DNA from: a virus
Reading direction: 5' to 3' (one strand)
IMG/VR virus record: IMGVR_UViG_3300030430_001771
Span: 1 to 22,861 of that record
DNA length: 22,861 bases
The translations under genes and the position numbers were made by a program. The notes under the pieces are model-generated. The model worked only from the letters and a program-made list of their open reading frames with translations, was not told where the DNA came from and ran no database searches. Every line of letters starts with the position of its first letter. The first letter of the stretch is position 1. Positions 15,018 through 20,173 of the stretch are shown here, piece after piece.

Positions 15018-15182
15018 ATGGCTATTGATCCAAAGCAAAAACTTGAGGCACTTAATTCTGAGTTATCACAAGTTGCAGAAAATTATAATAAAGCAACTCA
15101 AGTTGTTAAAAATTGCGAGCAACGCATACATGAATTAAGAGGTGGCATAGCTGCTCTTGAGGAAATTATAGCTAAAAAGTGA
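15018..15182 (+). CDS. Small coiled-coil protein (54 aa)
   Basis: ATG 15018 opens a 54-aa frame starting MAIDPKQKLEALNSELSQVA and ending GGIAALEEIIAKK. It is almost entirely helical with a heptad-like spacing of Leu, Val and Ile, and is free of aromatic or catalytic motifs apart from one Tyr and one Cys. A coiled-coil dimer is likely. The stop overlaps the next GTG start (GTGA), which supports this frame over the overlapping 63-codon frame beginning at 14947 that has no such coupling and an unlikely composition. Function unknown. Confidence 0.75.
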   Translation: MAIDPKQKLEALNSELSQVAENYNKATQVVKNCEQRIHELRGGIAALEEIIAKK

Positions 15183-15775
15183 ATGTATTTACTCTCTTTC
15201 CTTCTCTTGTAGCAAAGATAAAAGTACAACATCACGAGGAACTTAAAAAATTATTAGTGCCATCATTAGTAAAGCAATATAAAGATAATCCTGATCTTGA
15301 ATTACCTTGGGCAAGATGGGCTAATACATGGAATATTAATACTAATATTTCTAGTAATTTAAGCTTTAGAAAGTATATAGATGAATGGATGCAACATTTT
15401 AATTATCCAAAAATTAATTACGATATTGCATATTGGACTAATATTCACGAGTGGTATCATTATCAAGAAGTGCATACACATATGACTAATAATACTTTTT
15501 TATCAGGTATATATTATGCACAATTTGATAAAAATGATAGACCAGTAGAGTTTATTAACCCAAAAGATCAAGCACTTACTTACACAACAGAAGTTTTAGG
15601 TAAAAAACTTGAGCATCCATTTTTTCAAAAATACTCTACCGATACAGGATTAACAATAGAAGAGGGAGACTTGTTATTATTTACTCCTGATTGCCGACAT
15701 TTTGTACCCTCATCAAAAGACAAACATGATCGACTAAGAATAACACTTAGCTTTAATGCACATAAAATAAAATGA
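15179..15775 (+). CDS. 2-oxoglutarate/Fe(II) dioxygenase (TIGR02466-like)
   Basis: This 198-aa protein begins at GTG 15179 in a GTGA overlap with the upstream stop; no in-frame ATG lies nearby. The core VHTHMTNNTFLSGIYYAQF (His99, His101) resembles the H-x-H...LSGVYY motif of the TIGR02466 (2OG-FeII_Oxy_5) family, followed by GDLLLFTPDCRHFV (distal His174) and DRLRITLSFN, where an Arg (185 or 187) would bind 2-oxoglutarate. The N-terminus LFPSLVAKIKV is typical of the family. These double-stranded beta-helix enzymes hydroxylate proteins or small molecules; phage substrates are unknown. It is followed by a second, unrelated oxygenase with a 4-nt overlap. Confidence 0.75.
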   Translation: MNVFTLFPSLVAKIKVQHHEELKKLLVPSLVKQYKDNPDLELPWARWANTWNINTNISSNLSFRKYIDEWMQHFNYPKINYDIAYWTNIHEWYHYQEVHTHMTNNTFLSGIYYAQFDKNDRPVEFINPKDQALTYTTEVLGKKLEHPFFQKYSTDTGLTIEEGDLLLFTPDCRHFVPSSKDKHDRLRITLSFNAHKIK

Positions 15776-16326
15776 AAGACTTTATAGGTGTTTATGATGA
15801 TGCCTTCACAACTGACCAATGTAATGAACTAATTGAATATATTGAGTCTTTGCAAAAAAATCATTTATTATTCCAAGATAACGATAAAAAACATAATACA
15901 GACCACAAAGCAGTAGGACTGTTTTACCATAATTTGCTAGGCACTTCACCTTTTGGAGTTAAGTTTCTTCCAAATATTCAAAGATATGTTGATTCCTACC
16001 TAGATGAGTATTCAATTTTATCAAGAAAAAAGTTTTTAATATATGATGTCAAAGTTAAAAAAATACCTGATGGTGGTGGTTTTCATGCTTGGCACTACGA
16101 AGCAAATAATTTTGTATATGCTTCAAGAGTGTTCGTAGTTCAGTTATTTCTAAATGATATAGAAGAAGGAGGTGAAACAGAATTTTTATACATAGGCAAG
16201 AGAATAAAATCAAAAGCTGGTAGGTTAATTATTTACCCTGCTGGTTTTACACATACACATAGAGGCAATCCACCACTAGGCCAGACAAAATACCTTTGCT
16301 CTTCATGGGGTATTGTTCAAGAATAG
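15772..16326 (+). CDS. 2-oxoglutarate/Fe(II) dioxygenase, prolyl-4-hydroxylase type
   Basis: This 184-aa protein starts with a DDAFT-type segment typical of P4Hc-like enzymes. It shows the iron site His108-x-Glu110 (FHAWHYE), GGETEF at about 134-138, the distal His163 within GFTHTHRGNPP, and Lys173 in TKYLCSSW, which would bind the 2-oxoglutarate carboxylate. HxE instead of HxD is an accepted variant, but whether the Glu ligand alters activity here cannot be told. The start overlaps the previous gene (ATGA). Length and motif order match the phage and bacterial oxygenases related to collagen prolyl 4-hydroxylase. Substrate unknown. Confidence 0.85.
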   Translation: MKDFIGVYDDAFTTDQCNELIEYIESLQKNHLLFQDNDKKHNTDHKAVGLFYHNLLGTSPFGVKFLPNIQRYVDSYLDEYSILSRKKFLIYDVKVKKIPDGGGFHAWHYEANNFVYASRVFVVQLFLNDIEEGGETEFLYIGKRIKSKAGRLIIYPAGFTHTHRGNPPLGQTKYLCSSWGIVQE

Positions 16327-16327
16327 A

Positions 16328-16459
16328 TTAAATAGATTTTTCTGTCATTTGTCTTGTCATAATACTCATAGTGACGTAAAGGGGAGACAGAGCTACAATA
16401 AGCAGTAATACAAGCACACTTGTAACAGATAGTGCTTTCAATATTGCTAATTTAACCAT
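16328..16459 (-). CDS. Tiny antisense membrane protein (43 aa)
   Basis: On the - strand ATG 16459-16457 opens MVKLAILKALSVTSVLVLLL and closes with TAA at 16330-16328. Residues 4-29 form one strong hydrophobic segment, followed by a polar tail TRQMTEKSI, giving a single-pass membrane peptide. It fills nearly exactly the otherwise empty gap between the oxygenase and the next + gene. Its start shares the CATG palindrome with the + strand ATG at 16458, so both genes diverge from overlapping start codons. No Shine-Dalgarno sequence is visible on either strand. The complete fit and hydrophobicity favour a real gene but chance remains possible. Confidence 0.45.
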   Translation of the reverse strand: MVKLAILKALSVTSVLVLLLIVALSPLYVTMSIMTRQMTEKSI

Positions 16460-16679
16460 GAGAAAAGTTTTAGATGCTTTAACTATCGTAACTACAGTTC
16501 TAGTCTTGGGAATATTAGGCGGTGGATTCTTTACATATAAGTATGTGACCAGCGAGCAGTTTAAAGCAAAGATGATGAATCAAGTTCTTGAAAATGTAAA
16601 AGGACTTATGCCAAATGTTCTTGACAATGCTTTACCAAATACAACAGGCAAATCAATACCATTACCATTTAAAAAATGA
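16458..16679 (+). CDS. Small single-pass membrane protein (73 aa)
   Basis: MRKVLDALTIVTTVLVLGIL is followed by GGGFFTYKYV, giving an N-terminal Arg/Lys and one hydrophobic helix (residues about 8-29). A predicted amphipathic region QFKAKMMNQVLENVKGLMPNVLDNAL and a Pro-rich end TGKSIPLPFKK follow. The N-terminus looks like an uncleaved membrane anchor. As far as I recall, proteins of this kind with a 'GKSIPL' ending occur in marine cyanophages, of unknown function. It overlaps the zinc-ribbon gene by 4 nt (ATGA). A role at the membrane, perhaps lysis-related, is a guess. Confidence 0.7.
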   Translation: MRKVLDALTIVTTVLVLGILGGGFFTYKYVTSEQFKAKMMNQVLENVKGLMPNVLDNALPNTTGKSIPLPFKK

Positions 16680-16825
16680 ATTGTTGGCATTGTAAGTCAG
16701 AATTAATTTGGGGTGGCGATCAAGATACTGAAGAAGACACGCAGTATTCTATGGTCACAAATTTATCTTGCCCAAAATGTTTTAGTTATGTAGAAGTATA
16801 TCTACCGAGAAATGCCTACGATTGA
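16676..16825 (+). CDS. Zinc-ribbon microprotein (49 aa)
   Basis: ATG 16676 opens MNCWHCKSELIWGGDQDTEE and ends VYLPRNAYD. It has two CxxC knuckles, Cys3/Cys6 (CWHC) and Cys32/Cys35 (CPKC), 25 residues apart, which is the layout of a zinc ribbon. The centre DTEEDTQYSMVTNL is acidic. It overlaps the upstream stop (ATGA) and the next start at 16812 by 14 nt, so it is packed into the operon. From memory the MNCWHC...LIWGGD family is common in cyanophages. It may bind nucleic acid or a host protein. Confidence 0.8.
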   Translation: MNCWHCKSELIWGGDQDTEEDTQYSMVTNLSCPKCFSYVEVYLPRNAYD

Positions 16826-17447
16826 AATACCTAATATTTCTATTCCAGAAATAAAAATAGATCTACCATTGCATATACCTTATCAAGTTTTAAATGTACC
16901 TCCTCCATCTATAAAATTACCGGGCTGTGTTAAGTATCACAGAGATGCTTCCCCAAAAAATACTGCTTTATATGATGATGATCCTACAGGCACAATGATT
17001 TCTTGCCCTTACGGATCAATGCCTACGTTTCAGCCAATGTTATATGACAGAAGAAGATTAGATATTGTTGAATCAAAAGAACAAGAAAAAAGACAAGAAA
17101 CAAACGAAACTATAGAGTCACCAACAGTAAAACCAGAACTACCAAAGGAAAAGAAAAAGATAGTGATACCAGAGTGTCCGGGGTCAAAAGACCAGCGAGT
17201 AGGTGATTACAGAAATGCAAAAAAGCTTGAAATCGTAGTTGGACATCGTTTAGATAGAACAGAGTGCATAACTCTTTATGAAGACGTACCCTTCAAAGAT
17301 CAATACATCCCTTCTGCTAATCAATTTGTTGGGGTCTTTAGTCTTGCTTTGGTTGGTGCTTCTGCTCCGCTTGTTTTACAGCTAGTGCGACCCTTAGTTA
17401 AACAAGCTGTTTCTAAGTTATCAAAGAAAAAAGAGCCAAAATCATAG
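16812..17447 (+). CDS. Pro/Ile-rich protein with C-terminal hydrophobic segment
   Basis: This 211-aa protein starts MPTIEIPNISIPEIKIDLPL, an alternating Ile-Pro pattern, followed by HIPYQVLNVPPPSIKLPGCVKYHRDA. A middle charged region with EKKK and many Glu comes next, then QRVGDYRNAKKLEIVVGHRL...CITLYEDVPFKDQYIPSAN. Near the end lies a hydrophobic helix, about residues 172-197 (FVGVFSLALVGASAPLVLQLV). The C-terminal KKEPKS tail is basic. Cysteines at CVKYH, SCPYG, ECPGS and ECITL are scattered. I recall the family as a cyanophage protein of unknown function. The stop is followed by a terminator, so it ends the + operon. Confidence 0.7.
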   Translation: MPTIEIPNISIPEIKIDLPLHIPYQVLNVPPPSIKLPGCVKYHRDASPKNTALYDDDPTGTMISCPYGSMPTFQPMLYDRRRLDIVESKEQEKRQETNETIESPTVKPELPKEKKKIVIPECPGSKDQRVGDYRNAKKLEIVVGHRLDRTECITLYEDVPFKDQYIPSANQFVGVFSLALVGASAPLVLQLVRPLVKQAVSKLSKKKEPKS

Positions 17448-17473: not shown

Positions 17474-17509
17474 AAGCCCCTTACAGGCGATTCTGAGAGG
17501 GCTTTTTTT
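17474..17509 (+). terminator. Rho-independent terminator after the accessory operon
   Basis: AAGCCC (17474-17479) pairs with GGGCTT (17499-17504) over a 19-nt loop and runs into seven T (17503-17509), the layout of an intrinsic terminator for + strand transcripts. The T tract overlaps the stop of the convergent gene ending at 17508. Confidence 0.75.
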
Positions 17510-18173
17510 ACTGTTTTACGTCAATTTTGTGTTTATGAGGTAAAACTTGATTAGCTTTAGGAACTATCTCAATATCAGAGCATAAATCGTAATATGGGCT
17601 GTCTTTTTTAAATCTTATGCCTGCAATCTTTTTTTCTCCGCAATGACGTAATCTTGCCATATGCCAATCAAGTTCCTTGTTCTTTAATATTTGTTTGTTT
17701 ATATCATTCTGCACCTGTGCAGCTTCTTTGCATTTTTTTGTATATTGCCTATCTAATGGAATACTGAAATTTAAAGTAATTCCTGTTCCAAGAGCAAAAC
17801 TATCTTTATTTGTTCCAGAATAATTTTGTTGATAATACAAAATATCTCCCGGATTATCAGGTGTTCCATCTCCTATAGCGTTACCATCATCGTCAAAATC
17901 TCCAACAATATCTGTTTCGTCATAAACAGGTGTGTAGTAAAAATCTCGATATGGTTTTCTATAGTTTGTATTAAATGTAGTAAACGGAGTTATGGTCATC
18001 ATTGCTCCTTGACATACAACACCTCCACCAAATTGGTTAGTGTGAAAGCTTCCATTATTTACATTCCAGTTTTGATTAGTGACAGATCCACTATTACTTT
18101 GACTGACAGCATTAGCTAAAGCACTTGCTGGCAAGAAAGCTATTGAAAGACAGAGGTAGTGGTAACTACGGAT
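17508..18173 (-). CDS. Exported protein of the secreted operon, start codon unclear
   Basis: Coding signal in this frame starts near IRSYHYLCLSIAFLPASALANA, a signal peptide with an ALA/ANA-type cleavage site. The mature part is SQSNSGSVTNQNWNVNNGSFHTNQFGGGVVCQGAMMTITPF, then a Tyr-rich region with DDDGNAIGDGTPDNPGDILYYQ (calcium-loop-like), then a Cys-containing helical part (KKCKEAAQ...LRHCGEKK...YYDLCSDIEI) and PHKHKIDVKQ. From memory it matches a cyanophage secreted family ending PHxHxI. No ATG, GTG or TTG lies where a start is needed: ATC 18173 gives a full signal peptide, ATA 18143 overlaps the upstream TAG (ATAG), TTG 18134 is too late. The ATG at 18314 is read over the upstream gene. 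Boundary chosen at 18173. Confidence 0.65.
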   Translation of the reverse strand: MRSYHYLCLSIAFLPASALANAVSQSNSGSVTNQNWNVNNGSFHTNQFGGGVVCQGAMMTITPFTTFNTNYRKPYRDFYYTPVYDETDIVGDFDDDGNAIGDGTPDNPGDILYYQQNYSGTNKDSFALGTGITLNFSIPLDRQYTKKCKEAAQVQNDINKQILKNKELDWHMARLRHCGEKKIAGIRFKKDSPYYDLCSDIEIVPKANQVLPHKHKIDVKQ

Positions 18174-18562
18174 TCCGTTTCGATGGTGCGATTTATGGTT
18201 GTGACGTTTTGAAGACCGGGGGCTGAATATGTTTCTGTAAATTGAAAGGCATCTCCTGATGTTGGATTTGTAAGAGTCCAATCTGGTTTTGTTGTCATAT
18301 CTGCTCCTTTCCATGTGTATGTTTGACCTCCTACTGTTCCTGTAACGCTAACTGCATCTGGGGAAATATCGCCATTTGCACTAATGCCTGTTCCTGTAAC
18401 GGTATATTCATATCCAGTTTTATAGTCTTTGCTAGTGACTGATTCTGTAATTGTAGTTTGGGTATTAGTTGTTGAGGACATTGTACCAGTTGTAAAGTTT
18501 GGCACAATATTTGCGTTAGCTGGTAAAGCATATATAAAAAATAAAAATAAAAGCTTTCGCAT
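18140..18562 (-). CDS. Exported Thr-rich protein (140 aa)
   Basis: The N-terminus MRKLLFLFFIYALPANANIV is a clear Sec signal peptide with cleavage at ANA. The mature chain is Thr/Ser-rich and beta-like: TTGTMSSTTNTQTTITESVT, GYEYTVTGTGISANG, GGQTYTWKGADMTT, DAFQFTETYSAPGLQNVTTINRTIETESVVTTTSVFQ. From memory it resembles cyanophage secreted proteins with FTETYxGPGL and TTSVF endings. It starts 8 nt after the upstream exported gene and its end overlaps the next coding region. Location would be periplasm or outer surface. No enzymatic motif is visible. Confidence 0.75.
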   Translation of the reverse strand: MRKLLFLFFIYALPANANIVPNFTTGTMSSTTNTQTTITESVTSKDYKTGYEYTVTGTGISANGDISPDAVSVTGTVGGQTYTWKGADMTTKPDWTLTNPTSGDAFQFTETYSAPGLQNVTTINRTIETESVVTTTSVFQ

Positions 18563-18570
18563 AGCTCATC

Positions 18571-19050
18571 TTAGTCCACAGTTACAGATGTGACATAAGA
18601 ACCTGTGGCCGTAGTACCAGCCGACCCTGCTGTTATTGTAATTACATGATTATCAACAGTACCAGCTAAATTTGTAGCTGTACCTCCACTTGTACTTGTT
18701 AAGTCACCAAAAGGACTCACTTCACCAACAGTTAGAGATGTTGCGATTGTATCTCCAGTAGTGTGCGAAACTGTGTATGTAAAACTTTCTCCGTCAGTTA
18801 GTTGGGATGCAGTAATTGGTGTATAAGCATTTACACCATTAGTCGCTGCACCAAGACCTCCTACCGAGCCAGCAGTTGTTCCGTCTGTTGTATTAACTCC
18901 TGTTCCAGAAACAGAATATGAATTACCAATTCGATCAGCAGTAGTACCAGCAGCAGCAACTTCTAGTTTGACACTAGAACTAATTTGTGACGTTATATCT
19001 GCATAAGCTGGTGCTGATACAAGAAATATGAATGGAAGAAGTCTTTTCAT
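18571..19050 (-). CDS. Exported beta-rich protein (159 aa)
   Basis: MKRLLPFIFLVSAPAYADIT is a signal peptide with a YAD cleavage site. The mature protein runs SQISSSVKLEVAAAGTTADRIGNSYSVSGTGVNTTDG, then Gly/Ala/Thr-rich strands ending VTVD, with no cysteine. The segment 'SVKLEV-x-A-A-x-x-T-A-x-R-I-G-x-S-Y-S-V-S-G-T-G' is, from memory, a cyanophage family of unknown function. It starts in a 4-nt ATGA overlap with the upstream membrane gene. The next exported gene follows after 8 nt, and the N-terminal halves of the two are alike in design (Lys/Arg-Leu-Leu...). Confidence 0.75.
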   Translation of the reverse strand: MKRLLPFIFLVSAPAYADITSQISSSVKLEVAAAGTTADRIGNSYSVSGTGVNTTDGTTAGSVGGLGAATNGVNAYTPITASQLTDGESFTYTVSHTTGDTIATSLTVGEVSPFGDLTSTSGGTATNLAGTVDNHVITITAGSAGTTATGSYVTSVTVD

Positions 19051-19307
19051 TTTGTTACAGTTTTGTTATTTTTATTATCCACAATATTAGGGGCATTGCC
19101 AACAGTATTCTTTTTCTTGTTAACGGAAATGCCATAGCTGCCTAAGACCCCACTCGTGAGGCCGGCCAAAAAAGCACCATCATTGCGTATCTTATCCATA
19201 TATCCAAGAGTCATCATCGCCAAACTCCAGCAAAGAATCATAAATCGGACTCCATGACCAAAAATTTCTCCCCAATCAGTTCCTTCTTTTTCTTCTTTAT
19301 CTTCCAT
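19047..19307 (-). CDS. Holin-like small membrane protein (86 aa)
   Basis: This 86-aa protein has a charged N-terminus (MEDKEEKEGTDWGE), a first hydrophobic stretch GVRFMILCWSLAMMTLGYM (about 20-38) and a second NDGAFLAGLTSGVLGSYGISV (about 42-62), then a polar Asn/Lys-rich tail. Two helices with charged ends resemble class II holins. Nothing proves the function, and it lacks a nearby lysin. It opens the - strand operon and overlaps the exported gene by ATGA. A bidirectional spacer upstream separates it from the divergent 19355 gene. Confidence 0.6.
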   Translation of the reverse strand: MEDKEEKEGTDWGEIFGHGVRFMILCWSLAMMTLGYMDKIRNDGAFLAGLTSGVLGSYGISVNKKKNTVGNAPNIVDNKNNKTVTK

Positions 19308-19354
19308 ATTAGTAAGATGATATATACTATAACTATAGACACAAAAGGTTGAGA
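19308..19354. promoter_or_regulatory. Short divergent spacer with -10-like boxes
   Basis: The 47-nt spacer between divergent genes contains ATATACTATAACTATAG with TATACT and TATAGT-type -10 boxes on both strands. No convincing -35 was found at the right distance on either strand. Promoter activity in both directions is plausible but not demonstrated. Confidence 0.3.
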
Positions 19355-19585
19355 ATGGTAGAAGTAATAGCAGCAGTAGGTGGAGCTATGATGACCGCTT
19401 GCTTTGTATCAGTTGGCTCGGTATCTTATAGAGGCAGACAATCAAGAGATGATCTTGTGCGAAATACAACAGCAATAGAATTACTTACAACAAAAATAGA
19501 TGATATGCACGATGACATGAAAGAGGTATTTCATCGACTAAAAGAAGTAGAGCTTGCTGTTGCAGAAATTAAACCAAGAAGGTAA
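19355..19585 (+). CDS. Membrane-anchored coiled-coil protein (76 aa)
   Basis: ATG 19355 opens MVEVIAAVGGAMMTACFVSV, a hydrophobic N-terminal helix (about 3-25), followed by a heptad-rich tail TAIELLTTKIDDMHDDMKEVFHRLKEVELAVAEIKPRR, a likely coiled coil facing one side of the membrane. A TTG at 19349 could add two residues but ATG is preferred. The architecture resembles small phage lysis or spanin-like anchor proteins, though no lipobox or partner is seen. It stands divergent to the holin-like gene and 3 nt before the third oxygenase. Confidence 0.65.
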   Translation: MVEVIAAVGGAMMTACFVSVGSVSYRGRQSRDDLVRNTTAIELLTTKIDDMHDDMKEVFHRLKEVELAVAEIKPRR

Positions 19586-19588
19586 TTA

Positions 19589-20173
19589 ATGTTCAAAGAG
19601 CTTATTTATATTAAGAAAAATTCACTAACACCTAAATTTTGTAAAGACGTAATAAATAAATTTGAAGTAGAACCACAAAGAAAAGCAGGCATGGTTGGTG
19701 GTAATGCTCCAAGAATAGATAAAAGTGTAAAAGATACTGTTGATTTTTCTCTTACTAGAAGTGCTAATTGGGTTGAAGAGGATCGTGTTTTTTTTAACGC
19801 TTTACAAATTGGTTTAGAAGAATATACAAAATACTTACAATCTTTTCATATAAATTGTATGCCAAATCCAGATTATAAGACTATTGATACAGGATATAAA
19901 ATACAAAAGTACGAGCCTGCTGGTTTTTATAAATGGCATAATGATTGGGTCTTAACAAGTAAAGAGGGTTCAAGGGTATTTGTTTTTATGTGGTATCTAA
20001 ATACTATTGATAAAAAAGATGGTGGTTACACAGAGTTTTTTGATGGAACTAGATTGCAGCCTGAGTGTGGCTCATTAGTATTTTTTCCAGCAACTTGGAC
20101 TTATGTTCATAGAGGTTACAAAACAAAAGTAAATAAATATCTTTGTAACGGCTGGATTTATGCAAAGCCATAA
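19589..20173 (+). CDS. Third 2-oxoglutarate/Fe(II) dioxygenase (194 aa)
   Basis: This 194-aa protein has the iron site His117-x-Asp119 (WHNDW), GGYTEFFDG, the distal His174 in TYVHRGYK and Lys183 in NKYLCNGW. Motif order matches prolyl-4-hydroxylase-like enzymes and parallels the 15772 gene, but the HxD ligand and a different N-terminus (MFKELIYIKKNSLTPKFC) make it a distant relative, not a recent duplicate. The upstream region KYEPAGFYKWHND is the typical lead-in. No RBS beyond a weak AAGAAGG. Substrate unknown; phages carry such enzymes beside fibre and accessory genes. Confidence 0.85.
   Translation: MFKELIYIKKNSLTPKFCKDVINKFEVEPQRKAGMVGGNAPRIDKSVKDTVDFSLTRSANWVEEDRVFFNALQIGLEEYTKYLQSFHINCMPNPDYKTIDTGYKIQKYEPAGFYKWHNDWVLTSKEGSRVFVFMWYLNTIDKKDGGYTEFFDGTRLQPECGSLVFFPATWTYVHRGYKTKVNKYLCNGWIYAKP

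Follow-up and report, generated by a model that had tools for sequence, protein, structure and literature searches.

Four genes on the minus strand form a compact cassette in the window, by which we mean the whole stretch of 22,861 nucleotides that was analysed. We refer to them as g0, g1, g2 and g3 in their 5' to 3' order. They had been predicted to encode one holin-like and three exported proteins, and all four open reading frames are real, every one of them matching a conserved family. The genes, the elements within them and two neighbors are as follows.

19047–19307, minus strand: g0, 86 amino acids, holin-like with two predicted transmembrane (TM) segments and charged tails; phrog_21865 (1e-12), phrog_721, DUF6450.
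18571–19050, minus strand: g1, 159 amino acids, Thr-rich, exported; phrog_564, T4-GC 237, 'OMP1'; apparent distant paralogue of g2.
18140–18562, minus strand: g2, 140 amino acids, Thr-rich, exported; DUF6322, phrog_650, T4-GC 236.
17508–18314, minus strand: g3, 268 amino acids, exported, with four invariant cysteines and a probable start inside g2; phrog_848, T4-GC 235, gp165 family.
18165–18314, minus strand: N-terminal extension of g3, basic in composition (14 Lys or Arg, 4 His and 3 Asp or Glu in 50 amino acids) and sharing its nucleotides with g2, from which it is read in the -1 frame.
18108–18164, minus strand: part of the g3 signal peptide that comprises its hydrophobic core and Ala-rich cleavage region (YHYLCLSIAFLPASALANA); the g2 stop codon lies within it.
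18312–18314, minus strand: proposed ATG start of g3, formed from 'ACA TGG' (Thr-Trp) of g2.
18327–18332, minus strand: internal Shine-Dalgarno sequence AGGAGG, 12 nucleotides upstream of the g3 ATG, within the g2 codons GTA GGA GG-.
16812–17447, plus strand: phrog_570 (T4-GC 234), convergent conserved neighbor that also adjoins g3 in T4-like cyanophages.
16458–16679, plus strand: phrog_568 ('plasmid stability', T4-GC 414), 73 amino acids, conserved neighbor.

In the window, g0 and g1 overlap by 4 nucleotides and a spacer of 8 nucleotides separates g1 from g2, in agreement with the tight packing described in the original prediction. That description had passed over the third junction, where g2 and g3 overlap by 175 nucleotides in different frames, and this overlap is the most unusual feature of the cassette. 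Among window-like loci with enough flanking sequence, g1 is present in 49 of 49 and an open reading frame lies upstream of it in 48 of 49. The 4-nucleotide overlap recurs in 47 of these 48, which marks the members of the cassette as genes and not chance open reading frames. A scan for promoters and terminators found no excess over chance. Non-ATG starts are recurrent in the cassette: in L229, L284 and other loci resembling that of Marine virus AG-345-A17, g2 begins with a TTG that overlaps the g1 stop codon by about 8 nucleotides. This virus, known from a single-cell genome, also carries g3, and the tail protein K encoded at 1046–1795 of the window (plus strand) is 67% identical to its counterpart there, which points to it as the nearest named relative.

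The g2 protein scores 107 bits against DUF6322 (PF19847; curated cut-off 30.6) and 1e-39 against phrog_650, g3 matches positions 5–264 of the 292 in phrog_848 (4.9e-69), and g1 covers phrog_564 at full length (1–163 of 164, 2.8e-46). The g0 protein scores 29.8 bits against DUF6450 (cut-off 25). All g1 homologues carry an N-terminal leader resembling those cleaved by SPase I, and a crude signal-peptide test is passed by 233 of 233 g3 homologues and 229 of 230 g2 homologues, which bears out the proposal of three exported proteins; a simple pattern found no lipobox in any of these 233 and 230 sequences. Thr-rich composition was correctly attributed to g1 (20%) and g2 (23%). It does not extend to g3 (5.6%), and the cassette proteins contain no tandem repeats. 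An hhalign comparison (96.7%, E 3e-10), to which the shared leader contributes, suggests that g1 is a distant paralogue of g2.

We searched 50,697 phage records using tblastn and found g1 in 409, g2 in 402 and g3 in 450, essentially all from cyanophages or marine single-cell viruses. No g3 relatives emerged when a collection of bacterial and archaeal genomes was scanned with a pattern. Relatives of the cassette span T4-like, T7-like and siphovirus-type genomes, and gene order is nearly always kept. In profile searches of 22 selected cyanophage genomes, g2 and g3 were both present in 18 and both absent in 4, and the two are neighbors wherever they occur (18 of 18 tested genomes carrying either). 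Thus the families co-occur as had been anticipated, are not found as isolated genes, and keep their signal peptides in relatives; a co-conserved exported cassette is supported.

The usual layout in window-like contigs is g0-g1-g2-g3. In most P-SSP7-like podoviruses g1 is missing and the layout is g0-g2-g3; in P-SSP7 itself the order is tail fiber, phrog_9426, g0, g2, g3 and terminase. The g0 slot is occupied by several different small membrane families among relatives. In T4-like cyanophages the families of g1, g2 and g3 correspond to the trio T4-GC 237, 236 and 235 (phrog_564, phrog_650/DUF6322 and phrog_848), annotated for example in Syn19, S-SM1 and P-SSM2, which shares with the window its families, order and -1 overlap. 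The window differs in being a siphovirus-type genome, in having g0 directly in front, and in its strong internal AGGAGG. The cassette consists of families already known to be conserved in cyanophages, though with no assigned function, and is not a set of isolated oddities; the view of it as an undescribed system holds for its function, but not for the families, which are already catalogued (T4-GC 235–237, PHROGs and DUF6322).

Several neighboring genes are also of note. Beyond g3, phrog_570 and phrog_568 are found alike in the window, Syn19 and S-SM1; in the window (16458–17447, plus strand) they converge on g3 as in T4-like cyanophages, which suggests a larger shared module. Three plus-strand genes (15179–15775, 15772–16326 and 19589–20173) resemble 2OG-Fe(II) oxygenases or prolyl hydroxylases by eye, and a similar-looking gene in L301 (13614–14201) matches PF13640. 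Divergent from g0, a plus-strand gene at 19349–19585 encodes 78 amino acids with one N-terminal TM segment and a coiled coil (phrog_26178). This protein has a weak Rz-like match (E 0.31) and resembles Syn5 gp47 and P60 gp38 in appearance.

The reading frame of the g3 signal peptide runs through the g2 stop codon and is shifted by -1 from that of g2, a relation shared by 281 of 283 loci. Nearly all relatives have no start codon near the signal peptide, and public annotations place the g3 start at differing points, with gene callers behaving inconsistently. The start that we propose lies 21 to 58 codons upstream, at a tryptophan codon of g2 (xTGG). Between this position and the end of g2, the -1 frame is open in every sequence of five sets (63/63, 24/24, 56/56, 11/11 and 72/72), a total of 226 of 226 overlapping junctions, although these counts are not independent because the sequences are related. 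Synonymous resampling of the same sets gave expectations per sequence of 0.4%, 2.2%, 5.8%, 13.6% and 1.8%, respectively. Upstream of the proposed start, the -1 frame stays open for 40 codons in only one of the 226. In six T4-type relatives, g2 and g3 meet at an ordinary ATGA junction and the g3 leader is ordinary too (MKKYICLLLLLNNPVFANS); in this non-overlapping subclade the -1 frame is filled with stop codons and open in 0 of 6. In P-SCSP1u the g3 leader is nested in g2 in the other frame and has an ordinary ATG.

The codons around the proposed start also appear to be constrained. In the clade of the window, the Thr codon preceding the Trp is ACA (once ACG) and never ACT or ACC, and AGGAGG is found 11–12 nucleotides upstream of the g3 start in 57 of 60 sequences. 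On the tree of this clade, the two wobble positions that form AGGAGG change 0 and 1 times, compared with 13 changes at the next Gly wobble. Around the g3 start, synonymous variation is reduced to 0.22 of expectation, and in the rest of the overlap it is close to normal; constraint over the whole overlap is unclear in this clade (0.78 versus 0.80) and marginal in the other sets (p 0.03–0.05). P-SSP7-like phages with no nearer ATG use CCG (44 cases) or CCA (11 cases) for the g2 Pro that precedes the Trp, although CCG makes up 3% of the Pro codons in these genes. In contrast, this position holds CCT (or GCT for Ala) in all 11 P-SSP7-like loci where an ATG precedes the stop by 21 codons. Parsimony places about nine changes of the start base on the P-SSP7-like tree, all between G and A. 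No clear Shine-Dalgarno sequence was found in the T4-like and P-SSP7-like copies.

The g2 stop codon is TAA or TAG in 227 of 227 overlapping junctions and TGA in six of six non-overlapping ones. The absence of TGA from overlapping junctions is explained if TGA would create a misplaced start. We also considered an AUA start overlapping the g2 stop (CAATAA or CAATAG). This candidate was rejected, as the ATA is not conserved (many podovirus copies have GTA) and the leader would be too short; avoidance of TGA accounts better for the pattern.

On the basis of these sequence comparisons, translation of g3 very probably initiates within g2, on a codon derived from xTGG, so that the g3 signal peptide would overlap the last part of g2 in the -1 frame. 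The basic extension that such a start adds shows weak evidence of selection, its charge being mostly explained in simulations by g2's own sequence. This is what would be expected if g3 instead used a near-cognate start close to the signal peptide and the upstream open frame were a by-product of g2 composition, and three loci (L049, L054 and P-SSM2) have no ATG, GTG or TTG at the expected position. The open-frame test and the clade-specific conservation of the start codon and AGGAGG argue against such a start, and we regard it as quite improbable. Our first idea, raised by the absence of a start near the signal peptide, had been a programmed -1 ribosomal frameshift yielding a g2-g3 fusion with no start of its own for g3. 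The nearly constant -1 relation of the two frames and the same three loci would fit this mechanism, but it was dropped as constraint mapped to the upstream start and AGGAGG and not only to the junction, where no conserved slippery heptamer was seen by eye. Frameshifting is made very unlikely, and internal initiation favored over it, by the open frame in 226 of 226 junctions together with the stop-filled frames of the six ATGA relatives, and by the separate starts of those relatives and P-SCSP1u. What is new here is a g3 signal peptide encoded in the -1 frame across the end of g2, with a start very probably built on a g2 tryptophan codon.

Structure models offer limited guidance. The g2 model (pLDDT 77) contains two beta strands of about 23 residues. 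This long two-strand element recalls the stems of beta-pores and rings (lysenin, aerolysin and the FliF collar), but matches in the PDB to such barrel stems and ring collars are weak (Z at most 4), no sequence relation exists, and the likeness may reflect a common arrangement only. Against a viral library the model matched its own cyanophage relatives only. With a pLDDT of 62, the g3 model is poor; it features the four invariant cysteines and a long C-terminal helix. Its matches in the viral library were limited to gp165 relatives, and a second look at PDB chains using VIA-align gave essentially helix matches (Z at most 4).

We propose, tentatively and as something plausible though short of probable, that this conserved cassette with its g3 start inside g2 serves to breach the cell envelope at the end of infection. 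The small holin-like g0, whose gene precedes those of the three Sec-exported proteins, would permeabilise the inner membrane. The beta-rich and perhaps oligomeric g1 and g2, together with a disulphide-bonded g3, would work in the periplasm or the outer membrane and stand in for the spanins that these phages lack. This role is favored because of the position of the cassette in P-SSP7, the variable holin-like g0, the export of g1–g3 without a lipoprotein, and elimination, since no lysin is seen. Specifically, in a 45 kb relative running from RecT to the terminase genes, none was found in scans of 16 distinct proteins (10 with Pfam, 10 with PHROGs, four of them with both), and several large genes there, such as open reading frames of 721, 585, 1427, 1686 and 1088 amino acids, were placed by listing of open reading frames only. 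No Amidase_2 domain was found in six relatives. The literature on cyanophage lysis genes, gp165, overlapping genes and virion proteomics yielded nothing on the cassette genes.

Comparison with known lysis proteins gives partial likenesses. Like class II holins, g0 is small, has two predicted TM segments and charged ends, and occupies a highly variable slot. However, it matches no named holin family in Pfam or PHROGs and has no lysin in view beside it; its two hydrophobic segments are evident by sequence, and a crude TM count gives 0–2 in relatives. The cassette shares with two-component spanins (Rz/Rz1) genes overlapping in different frames (g2 and g3, 226 junctions), exported products and a holin-like gene nearby, but it has neither a lipoprotein (no o-spanin lipobox in the 233 and 230 homologues) nor an anchor of the i-spanin type, and no sequence relation was detected. 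Nor does it resemble unimolecular spanins, which combine a lipobox with a C-terminal TM segment: there is no lipobox, the g2 model ends in a beta strand and g3 ends in a polar tail.

Twenty Prochlorococcus and Synechococcus phages have been listed as lacking spanins, and it was suggested that outer-membrane disruption may be unnecessary there, the membrane perhaps being simply fragile (Kongari et al., PMC6139136). We found g2 and g3 in 13 of 18 tested phages from this spanin-less table (PMC6139136), which further favors a role in lysis. The cassette is absent by profile search from S-PM2, Syn5, S-CBS4 and PSS2, and was not found in the part of P60 that was searched. Because four phages do without it, the cassette is not universally needed and cannot be the only route. 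It is also opposite in strand to its neighbors in the window and in T4-like phages, so that position does not imply late expression there. A bolder reading, which we rate as rather unlikely, is that marine cyanophages have in this cassette their missing means of breaching the outer membrane. It would need neither lipoproteins nor spanins: once g0 fires, the exported beta proteins g1 and g2 and a disulphide-bonded g3, started inside g2 to fix their ratio, would disrupt the cyanobacterial outer membrane.

The absence of the cassette from some phages would also fit a role in surface remodelling or superinfection exclusion. The infected cell would then have its outer membrane coated or blocked by the exported proteins, and g0 would serve as their membrane partner and not as a holin. 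This rival is live, if on the unlikely side. All three proteins are Sec-exported and non-lipidated, g1 and g2 are Thr-rich beta proteins, and the cassette is often a strand-isolated island, compatible with timing of its own. However, exclusion genes usually turn over fast, unlike a cassette conserved over unrelated cyanophage morphotypes and hosts. The tight linkage with a small two-TM protein and the proximity of podovirus copies to terminase and tail fibers also speak against it. The same podovirus location, with P-SSP7 neighbors annotated as tail fiber, could point to accessory components of the virion, but this is improbable, as Sec signal peptides on all three would take the proteins out of the cytoplasm, where particles assemble, and Syn5 gp58, annotated as structural and in a similar place, is unrelated to the cassette.

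Phages of Prochlorococcus and Synechococcus kill a large share of the ocean's photosynthesisers. The xTGG start provides an example of an overlapping gene anchored on the tryptophan codon of its neighbor, and inconsistent placement of the g3 start in public genomes means that the signal peptide has been missed in some of them (for example Syn30, S-TIM5 and P-SSP7). Present in most of the listed genomes that were tested, the co-conserved exported cassette supplies a concrete set of candidate genes for the outer-membrane question.
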